Source: Geobacteraceae bacterium (GTDB lineage Bacteria > Desulfobacterota > Desulfuromonadia > Geobacterales > Geobacteraceae). Taken from it: 64,000 nucleotides of DNA. How positions within the stretch are numbered: the stretch's first letter is position 1; each line of letters opens with the position of its first letter. Where the stretch lies: NCBI GenBank assembly GCA_024281055.1, contig JAMXLF010000011.1:1-64000 (forward strand), written 5' to 3'. Below are positions 6,942 to 60,478 of the stretch, piece by piece. The notes beneath the pieces are model-generated. The model worked only from the letters and a program-made list of their open reading frames with translations. It ran no database searches and was not told the DNA's origin. The translations under genes were made by a program, and so were the position numbers.

Positions 6942-8688
6942 ACCGCTGGTTCTCCTGGAATCCCATGCACCTGGTCGTGATGACGCCTCATGGGCCTTCA
7001 GCGATCTGGTGTCGGAAATAACCGCCGTTACGCCGGCCGACGTCGTTCCCGCCCTGCAGCGGGTTGAGGCGGCGGTCGCCACTGGTTGCCACGCCGCCGG
7101 CTTCATCTCCTATGAAGCCGCGCCCGGCTTTGACCCGGCCCTTGTCACCCGCCCGCCCGGCGACGTTCCACTCCTCTGGTTCGGTGTATTCCGCCACCGG
7201 CTGCCGGTCACCCCCGGGACAACCGGCGAAGCGACGGCCCGCGAGGAGTGCTCGGCCACCGGCTGGCAACCGTCCATCGGCCGCGACACTTACGACGCCG
7301 CCATCGCCCGGATCCGGGAGTACATCGCCGCCGGCGACACCTACCAGGTGAATTTTTCCCTGCGCCAGCACTTCCGTCTCAACGGCTCCCCCTTCGCCTG
7401 GTACCGCGACCTGTGCCGCGCCCAGCGGGCACCCTTCTGCGCCTTCATCGACACCGGCCGCTTCCAGCTCCTGTCTGCGTCGCCGGAGCTCTTCTTTCGC
7501 CTCGACGGTAACCACCTCACCGTCCGTCCCATGAAGGGGACCGCAAGGCGCGGGAGATGGGCCACTGATGATGGGGAGGCCCGAAGCCGGCTGCGGGAGA
7601 GTGCCAAGGAGCGGGCCGAGAATCTGATGATCGTCGACCTCTTGCGCAACGACCTGGGACGGGTGGCCGCAACCGGCTCGGTGGCGGTTCCCGCGCTGTT
7701 CGGCGTGGAGACGCTTCCCACCGTCCACCAGATGACCTCCACCGTCACCGCCCGACTGCGGCCGGAGATCTCGCTGGCCGATCTGTTCCAGGCCCTCTTC
7801 CCCTGCGGCTCGGTGACCGGTGCACCGAAAAAACGGACCATGGAGATCATCGCTGAACTGGAGGACTCCCCGCGCGGCGTCTACACCGGCTGCATCGGCT
7901 ACGTTTCCCCCGGACCGGAAGCGGTCTTTTCCGTTTCCATCCGCACCGCGGTCATCGACGCCACAACGGGCATCGGCGAACTGGGGATCGGCAGCGGCAT
8001 AACCTGGGACTCCGCGGCGGCCGCCGAGCATGACGAATGCCGCGCCAAGGCAGCCTTCGCGCAGGAACCGGCGCCGGAGTTCGGCCTCATCGAATCGCTC
8101 CTCCACGAGGAAAAAAGCGGCTACTTCCTCCTCGATCGCCACCTGGCACGCCTCGCAGCCTCGGCTGCCTACTTCGGCTTTCCCTTCGACCCGGCAAGAG
8201 TGCGGAGGCAGCTGAAAGAGTTTACCGGTCCTCTTGCCGGAAACCACAAGGTCCGGCTCCTCCTGGCCCGCAGCGGGGACATCTCCCTTGAAGCCGCCCC
8301 CATAGGGGCTCGCGCTTCGGAACCGCTCCTGGCGGCCCTGGCGGCTGAAACCGTCGAACCTGCCGATCCGTTCCTCTACCACAAGACCACACGCCGCACC
8401 CGCTTCACGGACGAACTCGCCCGGCACCCCGGATGCGCCGAGGTGCTTTTCTGCAATCGCCGCGGGGAAGTGACCGAGGGGACCATGCACAATGTCGTGG
8501 CGAGGATCGCCGGAGAACTGGTTACGCCTCCCCTGGACTGCGGCCTTCTGCCGGGCGTGCTGCGGGAGGAACTCCTTGCCGGCGGGGAAATACGGGAACG
8601 GATCATCACCCGGGAAGAGCTTGCCCGGGCGGAGGAAATTTTCCTGATCAACTCGGTGCGGGGCTGGCGGCGGGCAAAACTGGTTTGA
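6931..8688 (+). CDS. pabB: Aminodeoxychorismate synthase component I fused to aminodeoxychorismate lyase
   Basis: This fusion converts chorismate toward p-aminobenzoate for folate. The first roughly 380 residues are a chorismate-utilising domain (RIREYIAAGDTYQVNFSL, FFRLDGNHLTVRPMKGTARRG, ENLMIVDLLRNDLGRVA, GSVTGAPKKRTMEIIAELED, ELGIGSGITWDS). The last roughly 200 are a PabC-type fold-IV PLP lyase (HKTTRRTRF, FCNRRGEVTEGTMHNV, CGLLPGVLREELL, EEIFLINSVRGWR). I place the start at the ATG at 6931, where [18 protein letters not shown] begins, overlapping the previous gene by 11 bases. The glutaminase PabA is not in this window. Confidence 0.93.
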   Translation: MKREPLVLLESHAPGRDDASWAFSDLVSEITAVTPADVVPALQRVEAAVATGCHAAGFISYEAAPGFDPALVTRPPGDVPLLWFGVFRHRLPVTPGTTGEATAREECSATGWQPSIGRDTYDAAIARIREYIAAGDTYQVNFSLRQHFRLNGSPFAWYRDLCRAQRAPFCAFIDTGRFQLLSASPELFFRLDGNHLTVRPMKGTARRGRWATDDGEARSRLRESAKERAENLMIVDLLRNDLGRVAATGSVAVPALFGVETLPTVHQMTSTVTARLRPEISLADLFQALFPCGSVTGAPKKRTMEIIAELEDSPRGVYTGCIGYVSPGPEAVFSVSIRTAVIDATTGIGELGIGSGITWDSAAAAEHDECRAKAAFAQEPAPEFGLIESLLHEEKSGYFLLDRHLARLAASAAYFGFPFDPARVRRQLKEFTGPLAGNHKVRLLLARSGDISLEAAPIGARASEPLLAALAAETVEPADPFLYHKTTRRTRFTDELARHPGCAEVLFCNRRGEVTEGTMHNVVARIAGELVTPPLDCGLLPGVLREELLAGGEIRERIITREELARAEEIFLINSVRGWRRAKLV

Positions 8689-40062: not shown

Positions 40063-40878
40063 ATGCTGACTGATGAACAGATCGAACGCTACTCCCGCCA
40101 CATCATGCTCAAGGAGGTCGGGGGAAAGGGGCAGAAGAAGCTCTTCGACGGCAAGGTAATGATGATCGGCGCCGGCGGGCTCGGCTCCCCCATCGCCCTC
40201 TACCTGGCGGCCGCCGGCGTGGGGACAATAGGGATCGCAGATGCAGATGTGGTGGACCTTTCCAACCTGCAGCGGCAGATCGCTCACCACACCCGGGACA
40301 TCGGCACGCCGAAGGTGGAGTCGGCAAAGGCAAAGATGACGGCCATGAACCCGGACGTCACGGTCAATACCTACGAGACATGGGTGAACGCCGCCAACGT
40401 CCGGGAGATCATCGCCGGCTACGATTTCGTCATCGACGGCACCGACAACTTCGCCGCAAAGTTCGTCATCAACGACGCCTGCGTGCTGGCCGGCAAACCC
40501 TATTCCCACGGCGGCATCCTCCAGTTCGACGGCCAGACCATCACCGTACAGCCGGGAGAATCGGCCTGTTACCGCTGCATTTTCCCCACGCCGCCGCCGA
40601 AGGACGCCATTCCCACCTGCTCCCGGGCCGGGGTGATCGGCGTTCTGCCAGGGGTAATCGGGACCATCCAGGCAACGGAGGCTGTAAAGTTCCTCCTGGG
40701 GAAAGGGGAACTCCTCACCGGTAGGCTCCTCACCTACAACGCCCTGCGGATGAAGTTCCGCGAGGTGCCGATCAGGAAAAACCCCAGGTGCCCCATCTGC
40801 GGGGATAACCCGACCATCACCGACCTCGTGGACGAACTGGACGCAATGAATGTCTGCGACATTCAAAATAACAAATAA
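40063..40878 (+). CDS. MoeB/ThiF-family adenylyltransferase (ThiS/CysO-type activator)
   Basis: An E1-like enzyme that adenylates the C-terminal glycine of a ubiquitin-like sulfur carrier. The 271-residue protein has RYSRHIMLKEVGGKGQKKL, the nucleotide site MMIGAGGLGSPIALYLAAAGVG, DNF...Zn-binding CxxC pairs (CYRC, CPIC) and the loop PTCSRAGVIGVLPGVIG. Its position ahead of a JAMM-peptidase remnant and sulfite reductase suggests a role in CysO-like cysteine or thiamine/molybdopterin sulfur transfer. The last residues (DIQNNK) are coded by the heptamer array that begins at the 3' end. Confidence 0.92.
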   Translation: MLTDEQIERYSRHIMLKEVGGKGQKKLFDGKVMMIGAGGLGSPIALYLAAAGVGTIGIADADVVDLSNLQRQIAHHTRDIGTPKVESAKAKMTAMNPDVTVNTYETWVNAANVREIIAGYDFVIDGTDNFAAKFVINDACVLAGKPYSHGGILQFDGQTITVQPGESACYRCIFPTPPPKDAIPTCSRAGVIGVLPGVIGTIQATEAVKFLLGKGELLTGRLLTYNALRMKFREVPIRKNPRCPICGDNPTITDLVDELDAMNVCDIQNNK

Positions 40879-40968
40879 CAAATTCCAAATTCCAAACAAT
40901 TCGAAAATAACCAATTTGGTTGAGATTTAATGCTTGGAATTTGTTTGTAATTTAGTGCTTGAGATTTG
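40864..40968. repeat. Inverted heptamer array 1 (CAAATTC-type)
   Basis: Seven-base units such as ACAAATA, ACAAATT, CCAAATT, CCAAACA run leftward of a perfect 13-base centre AACCAATTTGGTT (40909-40921); units such as TTGAGAT, TTGGAAT and TTGTTTG run out on the other side. The array is AT-rich, provides the moeB-like stop codon, and ends one base before a truncated gene. Confidence 0.75.
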
Positions 40969-44936: not shown

Positions 44937-45004
44937 TGTACACCAATATAGTGTAGTATTTTTCAAAAAAATTTCTTGACTTATTTTGTCAGTAAAGCTA
45001 CATT
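44937..45004 (+). promoter_or_regulatory. cysH promoter with upstream sulfur-regulon motif
   Basis: TTGACT (44976-44981), 17 bases and TACATT (44999-45004) form the promoter. TGTACACCAATATAGT (44937-44952), a relative of the two TATACACCAT motifs before the sulfite reductase gene, lies 23 bases upstream of the -35 box, a position suited to an activator. Confidence 0.65.
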
Positions 45005-45007
45005 TTA

Positions 45008-45057
45008 AACACATCTGTCAGCTATCCAAAAAAACACATCTGTCAGCTATCCAAAAA
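45008..45057. repeat. Perfect 25-base tandem duplication in the cysH leader
   Basis: Two identical, adjacent 25-base units (45008-45032 and 45033-45057), each containing CATCTGTCAGCTATCC, start right after the -10 box. They would be the first 50 bases of the cysH mRNA. Confidence 0.9.
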
Positions 45058-45120
45058 CTACACAAATGCAGAGCTGAACAGCAGTTAAAAAACCAGACCT
45101 GTGCAAAAAAAGGACCGACC

Positions 45121-45810
45121 ATGACCAACACCGCCAGCACCGAACCGACAGACCCCCGAGACATCCTCCGCAGCGGCGTAGTCCGGGCTGCAGGCAAGGT
45201 CGCCCTCGCCTGCTCCTTCTCCGTGGAGGACGTGGTGATCATCGACATGGCGAAGGAACTGGGGCTCCCCATCGGTGTCTTCGCCCTCGACACCGGCCGC
45301 CTCAACGAGGAGACCTACGAGGTTGCGGATGCCATCACCGAACGCTACCGGGTGGCCATCGACTGGCACTTCCCACATCATGAAGCAGTGGAGAGACTTG
45401 AGCGGGAGAAGGGGCTTTTCTCCTTCCGGGAGTCCCTGGAAAACCGTCACGAATGCTGCCACATCCGCAAGGTGGAACCGCTGGGGCGCGCCCTCAAAGG
45501 GCTTGCCGGTTGGATCACCGGGCTGCGTAGGGAGCAGAGCGTGACACGGACGGAGCTGAAAGCGATCGATGTGGACGAATTGAACGGCGGCATATTCAAG
45601 ATCAACCCCCTCCTGGAGTGGACAGAAGCCCAGGTCTGGGAGTACGCCGAAACCCGCCGGATTCCCACCAACAGGCTCCACAAACAGGGATACCCCTCCA
45701 TCGGCTGCGCCCCCTGTACCCGCCCGGTGACGGCCGGCGAACACCCCAGAGCCGGCCGCTGGTGGTGGGAAAATCCGGAGCACAAAGAGTGCGGGCTACA
45801 TCGCCGCTGA
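45121..45810 (+). CDS. cysH: Adenylyl-sulfate (APS) reductase, iron-sulfur type
   Basis: Reduces APS to sulfite. The 229-residue protein from the ATG at 45121 has the PP-loop-type fold (KVALACSFSVEDVVIIDMAKE, FALDTGRLNEETYEVAD) and the four cluster cysteines ECCHIRK and GCAPCTRPV, which distinguish [4Fe-4S] APS reductases from PAPS enzymes. The catalytic cysteine lies in the C-terminal ECGLHRR. AAAGGACC is the ribosome site; the frame extends upstream through the tandem duplication but without a start signal. cysD and cysN follow. Confidence 0.95.
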   Translation: MTNTASTEPTDPRDILRSGVVRAAGKVALACSFSVEDVVIIDMAKELGLPIGVFALDTGRLNEETYEVADAITERYRVAIDWHFPHHEAVERLEREKGLFSFRESLENRHECCHIRKVEPLGRALKGLAGWITGLRREQSVTRTELKAIDVDELNGGIFKINPLLEWTEAQVWEYAETRRIPTNRLHKQGYPSIGCAPCTRPVTAGEHPRAGRWWWENPEHKECGLHRR

Positions 45811-45820
45811 CGCGGCGAAA

Positions 45821-45890
45821 GGATGAAGGTTGAATTATGAATTATGAAAAGGGGTTAGTTTCATCCTTCATCCTTCATAATTCATCCTTC
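45821..45890. repeat. Inverted heptamer array 2 (GGATGAA/TTATGAA-type)
   Basis: GGATGAA GGTTGAA then two TTATGAA units (45821-45848), an 11-base spacer, then TTCATCC twice, TTCATAA, TTCATCC (45860-45887). All units share NNNTGAA on one strand. It begins 11 bases after the cysH stop and ends just before the cysD ribosome site. Confidence 0.85.
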
Positions 45891-45913
45891 GGTTGTTCAC
45901 GGAGAACCGATAT

Positions 45914-46819
45914 ATGAGCGAAACGTTGACCCACCTGCAACAGCTCGAAGCTGAGAGCATCCACATCATCCGCGAAGTGGTGGCCGAATTCGCCAACCCG
46001 GTGATGCTTTACTCCATCGGCAAGGATTCGGCGATCATGCTCCACCTGGCGCGCAAGGCGTTCTACCCGGCACCGCCGCCGTTTCCGCTTCTGCACGTCG
46101 ACACGACCTGGAAATTCCGTGAGATGATCGCATTCCGCGACAGAATGGCGAAAGAATGCGGTCTCGACCTGATCGTGCACGTCAACGAGGAGGGGGTGAG
46201 CAAGGGGATTTCCCCCTTCACCCATGGCTCGGCGCTCTACACCGACGTCATGAAGACCGAGGGGCTGAAGCAGGCCCTGGACAAGTATAGGTTCGACGCG
46301 GCCTTCGGCGGGGCCCGCCGGGACGAGGAAAAATCCCGGGCCAAGGAGCGGATATTCTCCTTCCGCAGCGCCAACCACCGCTGGGACCCCAAGAACCAGC
46401 GCCCGGAGCTCTGGAACCTCTACAACACCCGGATCAAGCCGGGGGAGAGCATCCGGGTCTTCCCCCTCTCCAACTGGACCGAGCTGGACGTCTGGCAGTA
46501 CATCCACCTGGAGAACATTCCCATCGTGCCGCTCTACTATGCCGCCGTGCGGCCGGTGGTGGAGCGGGACGGCATGCTGATCATGGTGGACGACGAGCGC
46601 CTGGAGCTCAAACCGGGCGAGAAGGTGGAGTACAAGTCGGTCCGCTTCCGCACCCTCGGGTGCTATCCCCTCACCGGTGCCGTGGAGTCGACCGCTGACA
46701 CCCTGCCGCAGATCATCCAGGAGATGCTCCTCACCCGCACGTCGGAGCGCCAGGGACGCCTGATCGATCATGACCAGGCCGGTTCAATGGAAAAGAAGAA
46801 ACAAGAGGGCTATTTCTGA
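45914..46819 (+). CDS. cysD: Sulfate adenylyltransferase subunit 2
   Basis: The catalytic PP-loop subunit of ATP sulfurylase, activating sulfate to APS. The 301-residue product starts [52 protein letters not shown], with the pyrophosphatase loop SIGKDS, and has [21 protein letters not shown] and [16 protein letters not shown]. The ATG at 45914 follows GGAGAACCG. It shares one base with cysN. Confidence 0.97.
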
Positions 46820-48495
46820 TGGCACACCAATCGGACCTGATCGAAAAGGATATCCTCGCGTACCTGAAGAGCCAGGAGGAGAAGTCGCTCCTTCGCTTCA
46901 TCACCTGCGGCAGCGTGGACGACGGCAAGAGCACCCTGATCGGACGGCTCCTCTGGGATTCGAAGATGGTCTTCGAGGACCAGCTGGCGGCGCTGGAGGT
47001 GGACTCGAAGAAAGTCGGCACCCAGGGAGGGGCCATCGACTATGCGCTTCTGCTGGACGGGCTGCAGGCAGAGCGGGAACAGGGGATCACCATCGACGTG
47101 GCCTACCGCTTCTTCTCCACCGACCGGCGCAAGTTCATCGTCGCCGACACCCCCGGCCACGAACAGTACACCCGCAACATGGTCACCGGTGCCTCCACGG
47201 CGAAAGTGGCGGTCATTCTCGTCGATGCCCGCAAGGGGCTCCTGACCCAGACCCGCCGCCACAGCTACCTGGTCTCCCTGGTCGGCATCCGCCACGTGGT
47301 GCTGGCGGTCAACAAGATGGACCTCATCGACTTCGACCGGGAGAAGTTCGATGCCATTGTCGGCGATTATCGCGAATTCGCCGTCCCCCTCGGCTTCGAC
47401 TCGATCACGGCGATCCCGATCTCGGCCCTGAACGGCGACAACATCATCGAGTCGAGCGGCAATACCCCCTGGTACCAGGGACAGACGCTGATGAACCACC
47501 TGGAGACGGTCCGGGTCGAGGACGATACGAAGAACCTCCCGTTCCGGCTGCCGGTCCAGTGGGTCAACCGTCCCCATCTTGATTTCCGCGGCTTCTGCGG
47601 CACCATCGCCTCGGGCTCGATACGACCGGGAGACGAGCTGCAGGTGGCGTCGTCGGGGCGCACCAGCCGCGTAGCCAGGATCATCACCATGAACGGCGAT
47701 CTGGATGAGGGGGTGGCGGGACAGGCGGTGACCCTTACCTTGACCTCCGAGATCGACATAAGCCGGGGCGACATGCTTTCGCCGCCGGATGCTCCACCAC
47801 GGCTCTCCCGGCATCCCGAGGCGCACCTGGTTTGGATGCATGACGAACCCCTGCAACCGGGGCAGGTCTACCTGGTGAAGACCGCTTCAGCGGTCACCCC
47901 TGGCAGGGTATCGCGCGTCCAGTATGCGGTGGACGTCAACACGCTGGAACAGAAACAGGCGCCGACGCTGGGGCTCAACGGAATCGGCGTCGTCCGGCTT
48001 GAGCTGGATCGAGCTGTTGCCCTCGATCCGTACCGGCAGAACCGCGAAACCGGGAGCTTCATCCTCATCGACCGGTTCAGCAACGCTACGGTCGCTGCAG
48101 GGATGGTGATCTCAGCGGCGCCGGTCGAGGCGCAGACGACCCGGCCGGAGCGGGGAACGGGAATCACGGAGGAAGCTGGCTTCCTCCCGCGGTGCTTCAG
48201 CCTCACCGAGCTCACCATCAGCGGAACCGAGTTGGGGGTGGCGGATATCACCCGGGAATGGGGTCCGATCGAGTTCGAGGTGTCGGCCGGCTTCCTCGAC
48301 TACCTCGGCAAAGGGAACCGGGTCATCTTCCGGCTTCGGGACGTGGGGCAGCTGGAGCCGGTGGCCCGCATGGCCTTCGAAAACCATCTCAACTTCGAGT
48401 TCGGCCGGGATCGGGACCGGATCAACGTGATCCTTTACCGGGATCAGCAGATTTGCAATTCGGCCCATGCGGACCTGCTTGGCGGGGGGCTGTGA
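46819..48495 (+). CDS. cysN: Sulfate adenylyltransferase subunit 1 (GTPase)
   Basis: The EF-Tu-like GTPase that drives APS formation by CysD. The 558-residue product has LLRFITCGSVDDGKSTLIGRLLWDSK, EREQGITIDVAYRFF, DTPGHEQYTRNMVTGAS and NKMDL, then beta-barrels. It ends without an APS kinase (CysC) domain, consistent with a pathway that reduces APS directly. TGATG coupling with cysD is present. Confidence 0.97.
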   Translation: MAHQSDLIEKDILAYLKSQEEKSLLRFITCGSVDDGKSTLIGRLLWDSKMVFEDQLAALEVDSKKVGTQGGAIDYALLLDGLQAEREQGITIDVAYRFFSTDRRKFIVADTPGHEQYTRNMVTGASTAKVAVILVDARKGLLTQTRRHSYLVSLVGIRHVVLAVNKMDLIDFDREKFDAIVGDYREFAVPLGFDSITAIPISALNGDNIIESSGNTPWYQGQTLMNHLETVRVEDDTKNLPFRLPVQWVNRPHLDFRGFCGTIASGSIRPGDELQVASSGRTSRVARIITMNGDLDEGVAGQAVTLTLTSEIDISRGDMLSPPDAPPRLSRHPEAHLVWMHDEPLQPGQVYLVKTASAVTPGRVSRVQYAVDVNTLEQKQAPTLGLNGIGVVRLELDRAVALDPYRQNRETGSFILIDRFSNATVAAGMVISAAPVEAQTTRPERGTGITEEAGFLPRCFSLTELTISGTELGVADITREWGPIEFEVSAGFLDYLGKGNRVIFRLRDVGQLEPVARMAFENHLNFEFGRDRDRINVILYRDQQICNSAHADLLGGGL

Positions 48496-48758: not shown

Positions 48759-49868
48759 ATGTACACCGGTATGGTAGAAGAAAAATCCATAACCTTCGAC
48801 ACCGACCTCCGCCTGGAAAGCGGGCGGATCCTCGGGCCGATCACCCTCGCCTACGAGACCTACGGGAAACTCAACGCCGACAGGTCGAACGCGATTCTCG
48901 TTGCCCATGCCTGGACCGGCAACGCCCACCTGGCGGGGAAATACAGCGAGGATGACACGAAACCGGGATGGTGGGACGCCATCGTCGGCCCGGGGAGGCT
49001 TCTCGACACCGATCGCTGGTGCGTCATCTGTTCCAACGTGCTCGGCTCCTGCTACGGCTCCACCGGCCCCGCCTCCGTGAATCCCAAGACCGGCAAAAAG
49101 TATAACCTCTCCTTCCCGGTCATCACCGTGCGCGACATGGTGCGGGCGCAGAAACTCCTCATCGACCACCTGGGGATCGAAAAACTCGTCACCGTCCTTG
49201 GGGGAAGCATGGGGGGTATGCAGGCCCTCGAATGGGCCACCCAGTTTCCCGACCGGATCGCCTCGGCGGTGGTGCTGGCCACCAGTCCACGCCCCTCGGC
49301 CCAAGCCATCGCGCTCAATGCCGTGGCCCGCTGGGCCATCTTCAACGACCCGACCTGGAAAAAAGGGGAATACCGGAAAAACCCCAAGGACGGCCTGGCC
49401 CTGGCCCGCGGCATCGGCCACATCACCTTTCTCTCCGACGAGTCGATGACCGCCAAGTTCGGCCGGCGCTTCTCCGCCCGGGACGGCCTGTTCGACTTCT
49501 TCGGCCAGTTCGAGGTGGAGCGCTACCTCTCCTACAACGGTTACAACTTCGTCGACCGCTTCGACGCCAACTCCTTTCTCTACCTCGCCAAGGCCCTCGA
49601 CCTCTACGATGTGGCCTGGGGGTGTGAGTCCCTCGAAGAGGCGTTCGCCCCGGTCACCGCGCCGATCCAGTTCTTCGCTTTCACCTCCGACTGGCTCTAC
49701 CCCCCCTACCAGACCGAGGAGATGGCACGGGCGCTCACGAACCTCGGCAAGTCGGCGGAGTACCACCTCATCCCGTCATCCTACGGCCACGACGCCTTCC
49801 TCCTGGAGCACGAGACCTTCGCACCGCTGGTGCGGGGGTTTCTCGAAAGCGTGAGACGTGAGATGTGA
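48759..49868 (+). CDS. metX: Homoserine O-acetyltransferase
   Basis: An alpha/beta-hydrolase that acetylates homoserine for methionine synthesis. The 369-residue protein has [28 protein letters not shown], the nucleophile elbow [15 protein letters not shown] and the C-terminal acid and His in SDWLYPPYQ and [11 protein letters not shown]. Two starts are possible (48759, 48771); neither has a strong ribosome site, perhaps because the leader ends in the terminator. The final residues VRREM are coded by a heptamer array. Controlled by the SAM-I riboswitch. Confidence 0.95.
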
Positions 49869-49922
49869 GGCGTAAGAAGTTTTCACGTCTAGCGTCTAGC
49901 GTCTAACGTTTCACTTTTCACT
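49850..49922. repeat. Inverted heptamer array 3 (CGTGAGA-type)
   Basis: CGTGAGA twice, TGTGAGG and CGTAAGA (49850-49877), a three-base centre, then TTTCACG, TCTAGCG twice, TCTAACG and TTTCACT twice (49881-49922). The left arm codes the last residues and stop of metX; the right arm, read on the minus strand, codes the last residues and stop of the convergent glycosyltransferase gene. Confidence 0.85.
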
Positions 49923-50932
49923 CTTTTGTACAGCTCCAGGTACTCCTCCGCCTCCCGCTCCGGGGGGAAACTTTGCAGAACATACTCCCGTCCCTGCTTG
50001 CCGAGCCTCTCGCGGAGTCGTCCATCCGCCATGAGCTGCGCGGCCTTGGTATGGAATTCCGCCTCGTCCCGGTAGAGCAGGCCGGTCACCCCGTCCTTCA
50101 CGAGGAAGCGGTTTCCCTCTATGGCCGCGGCCATGACCGGCTTGCCGCACGCGAGCGCCTCGAGAAGGCTGTTGGCCATCCCCCCTTCGAAGAGCGAAGT
50201 GTTGAGGACCACGTCCGCCCGCCGGTAGAGGCAACCCATGGCCTCATGGCTTACTTCCCCCAGGTAATGGGCGAAGGGGTAGCGTTCGAGCCCCTCCATT
50301 ACCCGGGCCGCGTACCCCGGATCGATCACCGGCCCTGCGAGGAGGAACCTGGTCCGGGCATCTTCGGCGTAAAGCTCGGCCAGCGGCGCCAGGGGAGACA
50401 GGACCTGCTTGACCGGCCGCAGCCCCGCCGGCAGGAGAAAGGTGAACGCCCCGGCCGGGAAGAAAACTCCCGCCGGTCCTGCACAACTGTCGCCCGGTTG
50501 CTCCACTCCCTGGGGGATGACGATTGTTCGCCCCGTGAGGGTCGGGCAGTGGAGCGAGAGCATCTTTTTGATGTCCGGGGCGAACGCCACCAGGCGGGCA
50601 GCGCCGTGGAGGACCGCGCGGGTCTCCTCGCGACGGCTGTCGATCAGCGCCTCATGGACGTCGGTGCCGGTCAGGGTGACGACATAGGGGATGCCGGTTT
50701 CCCGGGCAATGGCCCGGGCCACCCGGCCGCCGGACCAGCCGTGAAAGGCATGGATCAGCACCGGAGACTCCGCGGCCACGTGCCGGGCGATCTCGCCCGC
50801 GGCCATGGCATCCAGGGAATAGACCTCAACCCGGCAGCCACGGTCGGTCAGGGAGCGCTCGACGCGCCGCACCGTCACCGCATTGCCGCGGACGGCAGGA
50901 TAATAGTGGGGGGTGATGATGGCAATCCTCAC
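49889..50932 (-). CDS. Glycosyltransferase family 4-like protein
   Basis: The protein (about 347 aa) has an N-terminal Rossmann domain (RIAIITPHYYPAVRGNAVTVRRVERSL) and a C-terminal GT1-type domain with the E-x7-E signature in FEGGMANSLLEALACGKPVMAAAIEGN. It should move sugar from a nucleotide sugar onto an unidentified acceptor. I prefer the GTG at 50932, with AGGGAG upstream and a normal family N-terminus; an ATG at 50959 is possible. The C-terminus (KSETLDARR) comes from the heptamer array. Confidence 0.88.
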   Translation of the reverse strand: MRIAIITPHYYPAVRGNAVTVRRVERSLTDRGCRVEVYSLDAMAAGEIARHVAAESPVLIHAFHGWSGGRVARAIARETGIPYVVTLTGTDVHEALIDSRREETRAVLHGAARLVAFAPDIKKMLSLHCPTLTGRTIVIPQGVEQPGDSCAGPAGVFFPAGAFTFLLPAGLRPVKQVLSPLAPLAELYAEDARTRFLLAGPVIDPGYAARVMEGLERYPFAHYLGEVSHEAMGCLYRRADVVLNTSLFEGGMANSLLEALACGKPVMAAAIEGNRFLVKDGVTGLLYRDEAEFHTKAAQLMADGRLRERLGKQGREYVLQSFPPEREAEEYLELYKRVKSETLDARR

Positions 50933-60406: not shown

Positions 60407-60478
60407 CGTGAAAGGTGAATGGTGAAAGGTGAATAACGAATCGATTCACCCTTCACCGTTCACCCTTCACCATTCACG
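60407..60478. repeat. Inverted heptamer array 4 (GGTGAAN-type)
   Basis: CGTGAAA, GGTGAAT, GGTGAAA, GGTGAAT, AACGAAT (60407-60441), a two-base centre, then ATTCACC, CTTCACC, GTTCACC, CTTCACC, ATTCACG (60444-60478). Five units face five. It ends three bases before the ribosome site of the DUF362 gene. Confidence 0.88.

Follow-up and report, generated by a model that had tools for sequence, protein, structure and literature searches.

Xanthomonas genomes carry degenerate GGGAATC (GGGANTN) heptamer repeats, mostly of four units. Two genomes have 186 and 183 of them, and in 70 and 75 cases two sites lie close together in convergent (inverted) orientation. The repeats are mostly intergenic and between co-directional genes, at a mean of 28 nt from the 5′ ORF and 160 nt from the 3′ ORF (PMC4692102). 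Geobacter metallireducens has class 3 paired sites of five tandem MTYCTGA units, and GGACCGG elements of four heptamers. One paired site separates proB from proA, and in G. sulfurreducens that spot is taken by a different multicopy sequence (PMC2700814). Enteric REP/PU elements are intercistronic palindromes, some within 15 nt of a stop codon (PMC12306157, PMC3733652), and the GTAG end of GTAG-tagged REPs often supplies the stop TAG (PMC3733652). TAACTGA heptamer repeats of Beggiatoaceae are intergenic and hold stops in all frames (PMC4679880).

The window, which is the whole 64,000-nt stretch of Geobacteraceae bacterium contig JAMXLF010000011.1 that was analyzed (assembly GCA_024281055.1, positions 1 to 64,000), contains a heptamer array between cysH and cysD. 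Its parts and neighbors are as follows.

44986–45810, plus strand: cysH, phosphoadenosine/adenosine phosphosulfate reductase (PF01507, 3.6e-46); start codon uncertain
45808–45810, plus strand: TGA stop codon of cysH; the array begins 10 nt beyond it
45821–45849, plus strand: left arm, with units GGATGAA (45821–45827), GGTTGAA (45828–45834), TTATGAA (45835–45841) and TTATGAA (45842–45848), then A
45850–45859 (approximate), unstranded: loop between the arms, AGGGGTTAGT
45860–45890, minus strand: right arm, with inverted units TTCATCC (45860–45866), TTCATCC (45867–45873), TTCATAA (45874–45880) and TTCATCC (45881–45887), then TTC
45914–46819, plus strand: cysD, sulfate adenylyltransferase subunit 2 (PF01507, 4.5e-60); ATG at 45914
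46819–48495, plus strand: cysN-like GTPase gene (PF00009), adjoining the end of cysD

The gene order cysH-cysD-cysN is plain, since PF01507 is found in both cysH and cysD and a GTPase gene touches cysD. The array occupies most of the 103-nt cysH-cysD gap (45811–45913), and the eight NNNTGAA-type units, four per side, of the preliminary description are seen at 45821–45887. Arms 45819–45849 and 45859–45889 are 77% complementary; shifted by one unit they are 88% complementary over 24 nt, giving two pairing registers. Folded alone, 45819–45890 reaches −24.6 kcal/mol (z −4.15), which 0 of 200 shuffles equal, and folding with flanks gives z −2.04. The gap showed neither promoter- nor terminator-like sites, and no GC-rich stem followed by a T run, as an intrinsic terminator would have. 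Rfam returned only sub-threshold matches for the array, with no hit above the gathering score. Directly 5′ of the array, a 6-bp stem (CGCCGC/GCGGCG, 45802–45817, loop TGAC) encloses the cysH stop. Similar or longer stop-spanning palindromes are present at cysH-cysD in array-bearing relatives (L040, L041, L066 and L083). Near the 5′ end of cysH, positions 45007–45057 hold a perfect 25-bp tandem duplication, a length not divisible by 3. The real cysH start probably lies further in.

Three other arrays in the window had been grouped with this one as a single class.

60408–60477, unstranded: second clean class member, NNGTGAA units, palindromic 40-nt arms (83%)
49846–49925, unstranded: period-7 array, left arm CGTGAGA-type, right arm CGCTAGA-type, no inverted repeat of at least 12 nt
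40861–40945, unstranded: weak member, CAAATTC-type units, perfect arms of 12 nt

The grouping holds for the array at 60408–60477, a clean twin, and weakly for 40861–40945. The array at 49846–49925 has the period of 7, but its arms are of two types and are not complementary over 12 nt. It runs across a hydrolase gene's 3′ end and lies between convergent genes.

Four consecutive NNNTGAA units match 113 times (71 + 42) in the source genome (4.44 Mb, 103 contigs), and the reversed pattern matches 0 times. This count and the fold z of the array argue against coincidence, which the preliminary description had tied to an absence of similar 7-periodic arrays from related genomes; similar arrays do occur elsewhere. 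Tandem periods 4–12 were scanned with no sequence model in 463 kb of the source genome, and an inverted partner was sought within about 150 nt. The scan found 39 period-7 arrays, 26 with an inverted partner, against 27 arrays and 1 partner for the other periods together; Markov shuffles gave zero period-7 arrays. Period-7 arrays numbered 13 in G020 (200 kb), 12 in G007 (80 kb) and 6 in G011 (80 kb), of which 6, 6 and 4 had an inverted partner. There were none in G001 (200 kb), G028 (100 kb) or G033 (40 kb), and 1 in G017 (100 kb). The proposal of a class with constant period and inverted layout but varying unit is supported by the inverted period-7 arrays of the source genome, G020, G007 and G011, and by differing units at orthologous junctions, described below. 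In a phylum sample, NNNTGAA×4 is present in 114 of 297 genomes, with a patchy distribution. The reversed control is far lower in many, yet not all, of the genomes rich in the pattern.

Elements with TGAA or CGAA cores were listed from 703 kb of the source genome, in stretches partly picked for containing matches. The 75 listed elements comprise 42 with two or more arms and 33 single arms. Three cores occur. NNATGAA and NNGTGAA carry TGAA in their left arm; the third, GTTCRAN/NTYGAAC, is the opposite way round. In the source genome, an arm of a GTTCNAN element typically consists of four units plus GTT (four units in the left arm in 25/27, in both arms in 15/27), and the loops of these elements are unrelated in sequence and in length. 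Both-arm GTTCNAN patterns were found in 16 of 38 genomes, the source included, and both-arm GTGAANN patterns in 8 of 38; the reversed control was 0. The elements are thus dispersed intergenic palindromes in many copies, as REPs and REPINs are, and tandem degenerate heptamers, often in inverted pairs, of the Xanthomonas and Geobacter kind. A GTAG or CGTC end tag and a conserved sequence, which mark REPs and REPINs, were not found, and heptad units stand instead. At L225:974–1166, a loop of >100 nt contains a terminator-like hairpin.

Slippage, favored at period 7, and fold-back copying could together make inverted arrays of neutral or selfish minisatellite-like DNA that has no function. This reading is possible, if on the doubtful side. 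One-sided growth to 10–16 near-perfect CCTTGAA or GTTCTAC units is seen at L152:5690, L216:1954, L240:3395 and, in G020, at site L155, and is what slippage would produce. The single arms and the patchy spread over the phylum genomes also fit neutral arrays; the clustering of arms at four units does not.

Placement was scored against genes called as ORFs by codon usage. Among the 55 placeable elements of the 75, 47 lie between co-directional genes, 4 between divergent and 4 between convergent genes; the remaining 20 overlap called genes (17) or lie at edges (3). In four array-bearing genomes, gaps of at least 40 nt hold a period-7 array in 39/239 tandem, 5/52 convergent and 2/55 divergent cases. 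The outer unit falls within 15 nt past the upstream stop in 37 of the 47 tandem elements and in 27 of 28 two-arm ones. Many such gaps are so short that no other place was possible. Of the elements in the 16 gaps with at least 60 free nt, 7 are 15 nt or less from the stop, against 1.4 expected (p 0.0002), and 2 are that close to the start. For neutral arrays, survival just past stops would follow from this being the only harmless spot in a packed operon, but the placement in these roomy gaps is tighter than tolerance predicts. Two-arm GTTCNAN elements lie within 15 nt of the stop in 21/23 cases in G000, 13/15 in G020 and 12/15 in G007. Across these three genera the mode of the distance is 5 nt, and it is exactly 5 nt in 20/53. 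The flank 5′ of the first GTTC reads T(A/G)A and is then A-rich, with C common two bases before GTTC. The hairpins of two-arm elements thus mostly lie <16 nt after the stop, as do REPs that act in translation, and the distance is 10 nt at cysH. Eight loci were viewed in distant phylum members. The element starts 4 and 10 nt past the stop of a long ORF in L341 (the same element is in L344) and L335, and in L337 it provides the stop itself; the other viewed loci are unclear or not adjacent.

The depletion of divergent, promoter-bearing gaps (2/55) counts against DNA sites for a nucleoid or global regulator protein, in which units would be half-sites and the hairpin incidental. Such binding has been proposed for the G. 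metallireducens paired sites (PMC2700814). It would suit the constancy of the core beside degenerate bases, the single arms, a pair of arms some 410 nt from each other (L225:7407–7434 and 7843–7870), and arms with differing units, as at 49846–49925 in the window and in G011 at site L156. Many proteins would be required, as there are at least three cores in one genome and other cores at orthologous sites, and we consider regulator sites unlikely. An all-frame stop cassette, catching read-through or shifted ribosomes ahead of the next gene, would exploit the 7-nt period: since 3 does not divide 7, any TGA or TAG of the unit appears in every frame. All three frames are closed in 19/23 two-arm elements of G000, 14/15 of G007 and 10/15 of G020, where shuffles give 6.4, 8.6 and 7.1. 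Frame closure, however, follows from the period once the unit holds a stop, several unit types lack any stop, and single arms favor neither strand (TGAA-sense 10, TTCA-sense 9). A cassette function is highly improbable.

Flanks of eight two-arm elements of the source genome, with the array omitted, were searched in eight relatives. Of the places found, those retrieved gave 47 of 64 possible orthologous gaps. At a detector threshold of 15 of 21, which 7 of 2,205 shuffles pass, a period-7 array is present in 16 of the 47 gaps, and 31 fall below threshold. The many orthologous gaps without an array indicate that the element is dispensable, and these empty gaps are in keeping with neutral arrays. 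Junctions are nonetheless reused above background, which neutral arrays do not predict. In three genomes with a background sample, arrays are in 10/19 orthologous gaps versus 25/164 tandem gaps (p 0.0005); against gaps no shorter than 40 nt, of which 19/95 hold an array, p is 0.007. Read by eye, 5 of the 16 orthologous arrays match the source genome in unit type and 3 keep its core in variant form (GTTCTAN in place of GTTCAAN); 7 have a different type, and in 1 the two arms differ in type. Site L162 has NNATGAA in the source genome and G010, TTTTGAG in G003, nine GTGAAGA units in G015 and five GTGAGAA units in G035; in G007, G011 and G020 a REP-like GTAGGGGCG element is there instead. At site L165 the first GTGAA unit supplies the stop codon with its TGA; in G003 and G018 the TAG of a GTAGGGGCG element does so, as in the GTAG-tagged REPs (PMC3733652). 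GTAGGGGCG..CGCCCCTAC elements (L249–L298, sites L162 and L165) share junctions with heptamer arrays and can give a TAG stop. L298 in G011, the orthologue of source site L156:15434, has GGCTGAA units on its left arm and TTCACNN units on its right arm. Judged from their units, the two arms at this site appear to have been replaced independently of each other.

The cysH-cysD gap was also compared by eye. Units are NNATGAA in the source genome, GGCTAAA/GGCAAAA in G003, G007, G035 and G010, and GTGAGGA in G033. Two metagenome genomes have TTTTGAG and GTTTTTG units, and further genomes have other palindromes; in several relatives the gap is bare at 6–34 nt. A special hotspot at cysH-cysD was considered and rejected: about ten relatives suggested it by eye, but the detector found arrays in 5/39 of these gaps versus 3/75 other tandem gaps (p 0.12). 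Other heptamer words at like places in relatives suggest that shape and position weigh more than sequence.

Loops were compared between elements. Many copies of GTGAANN elements in G023 and G026 have a common loop, AAAAGATCAAAGGCTTTT. Nearly the same loop recurs in GGCNAAR elements from other genera (L200 in G007, L206 in G011, and L041), so that the loop is kept and the units differ. A search for loop AAGATCAAAGGCTTTT among the compared loci, allowing 3 mismatches, found heptamer elements bearing it or a close variant in L040, L041 and L066, and none in the source genome. The common loop AAAAGATCAAAGGCTTTT suggests copying and, with the dispersed, palindromic and intergenic character of the elements, would fit a REPIN/BIME-type element mobilized by a RAYT (Y1) transposase. 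Counts of Y1_Tnp and of arrays are uncorrelated over 38 genomes (rho 0.17, p 0.30), so no RAYT association appears by genome counts. Loops of the GTTCRAN family are unrelated, which counts further against RAYT and rules out whole-element copying for this family. RAYT mobilization is extremely unlikely.

Six elements were folded, with z from −4.2 to −8.1. Covariation does not serve as support for the hairpin: pairing at the constant positions is built in, and the variable ones show no covariation. The arm covariance expected in the preliminary description was looked for in class elements other than cysH-cysD and was absent at variable bases, as it would be in neutral arrays. Variable bases pair across arms in 14/88 cells of 23 source-genome elements, versus 26% after arms were swapped between elements. 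In three genomes, sense-oriented N1–3 positions are Watson-Crick paired in 30/159 cells versus 40.5 expected from arm swaps. No G-U preference was found in the sense strand at the R/Y position (G-U 11/159, 11.2 expected; A-C 8, 7.7 expected). Pairing of the loop-side variable base appears to be avoided (0/56; sense-oriented 1/53 versus 10.7 expected), which may reflect only element polarity (GGTT-loop-AACR) mixed in the null. An inverted partner within 160–200 nt is absent for 31 of 33 single-arm elements. Folds are strong, but the constant bases pair by construction, variable pairing is not above arm swaps, and lone arms occur. The hairpin can therefore form, and selection for exact pairing is not seen.

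The Xanthomonas and G. metallireducens heptamer elements are the same kind of thing as the arrays described here. Those of Xanthomonas share degenerate heptamers, mostly four units, inverted pairs, co-directional gaps and a place nearer the 5′ gene. They have one G-rich unit read as a G-quadruplex, whereas the array here has NNATGAA units and no G-quadruplex motif. Sharp stop spacing of ~5 nt and unit replacement at orthologous junctions, as seen here, are not reported in the available part of the Xanthomonas work (PMC4692102). The G. metallireducens sites come from the same bacterial family and are likewise tandem heptanucleotides in opposite-strand pairs. They differ in being named regulator binding sites or RNAs and in having other units, and the available part of that paper states no stop-codon rule (PMC2700814). 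REPs resemble the arrays as intercistronic palindromes near stops, and GTAGGGGCG elements occupy some of the same junctions; REPs differ in being one fixed sequence family with no heptad structure, and the RAYT link was not seen for the arrays. Degenerate heptamers borne in an intron likewise pair into a transcript hairpin and vary by strain in copy number and class, but they are a single intron locus. Beggiatoaceae repeats differ more, being direct, little degenerate and mostly upstream of starts, with one inverted repeat only in the available account (PMC4679880). In the open-licence PMC literature, no statement of a stop-codon spacing rule for heptamer arrays and no description of systematic unit replacement at orthologous operon junctions were found. 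Stop anchoring and unit replacement are additions to the known heptamer elements.

The cysH-cysD array belongs to a class of intercistronic heptad palindromes that comprises several families. The class has two arms of about four degenerate heptamers each, inverted round a short loop just past the stop of the first gene in a co-directional pair. In the transcript the arms are computed to fold into a long hairpin with periodic mismatches. The favored reading, to which we give about even odds, is that this post-stop hairpin works like stop-proximal REP elements. By analogy, it would slow the ribosome terminating on cysH, block 3′-to-5′ decay, or both, and cysH and cysDN on one transcript would thereby differ in translation or lifetime. 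The earlier idea that a stable hairpin separates cysH from cysDN expression is compatible with the predicted fold and the stop-adjacent place. Place and fold fit a REP-like role; the lack of covariation, the single arms and the empty orthologous gaps point to an effect that is weak and dispensable, or to no effect. The heptamers may be turned over quickly by slippage, homogenization and perhaps inter-site copying, with period, inversion and place persisting. Such turnover within a lasting architecture would account for the pattern observed, the same junction with other units in other genera.

A wider reading, which we regard as rather unlikely, is that many bacteria hold a sequence-agnostic layer of post-stop hairpins in their operons. 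Its architecture (7-nt period, about four units per arm, inverted, ~5 nt past the stop) would be kept, the unit would be rewritten from genus to genus by copying or homogenizing, and unrelated heptamers would do the same job at the same junctions. If only the architecture is common to the class, this would explain why sequence searches miss it. Heptamer repeats have often been noted in bacterial genomes with no placement rule. A rule of co-directional genes, a place a few nt past the stop, inverted four-unit arms and an exchangeable unit would turn them into a testable element that may set gene ratios within operons.
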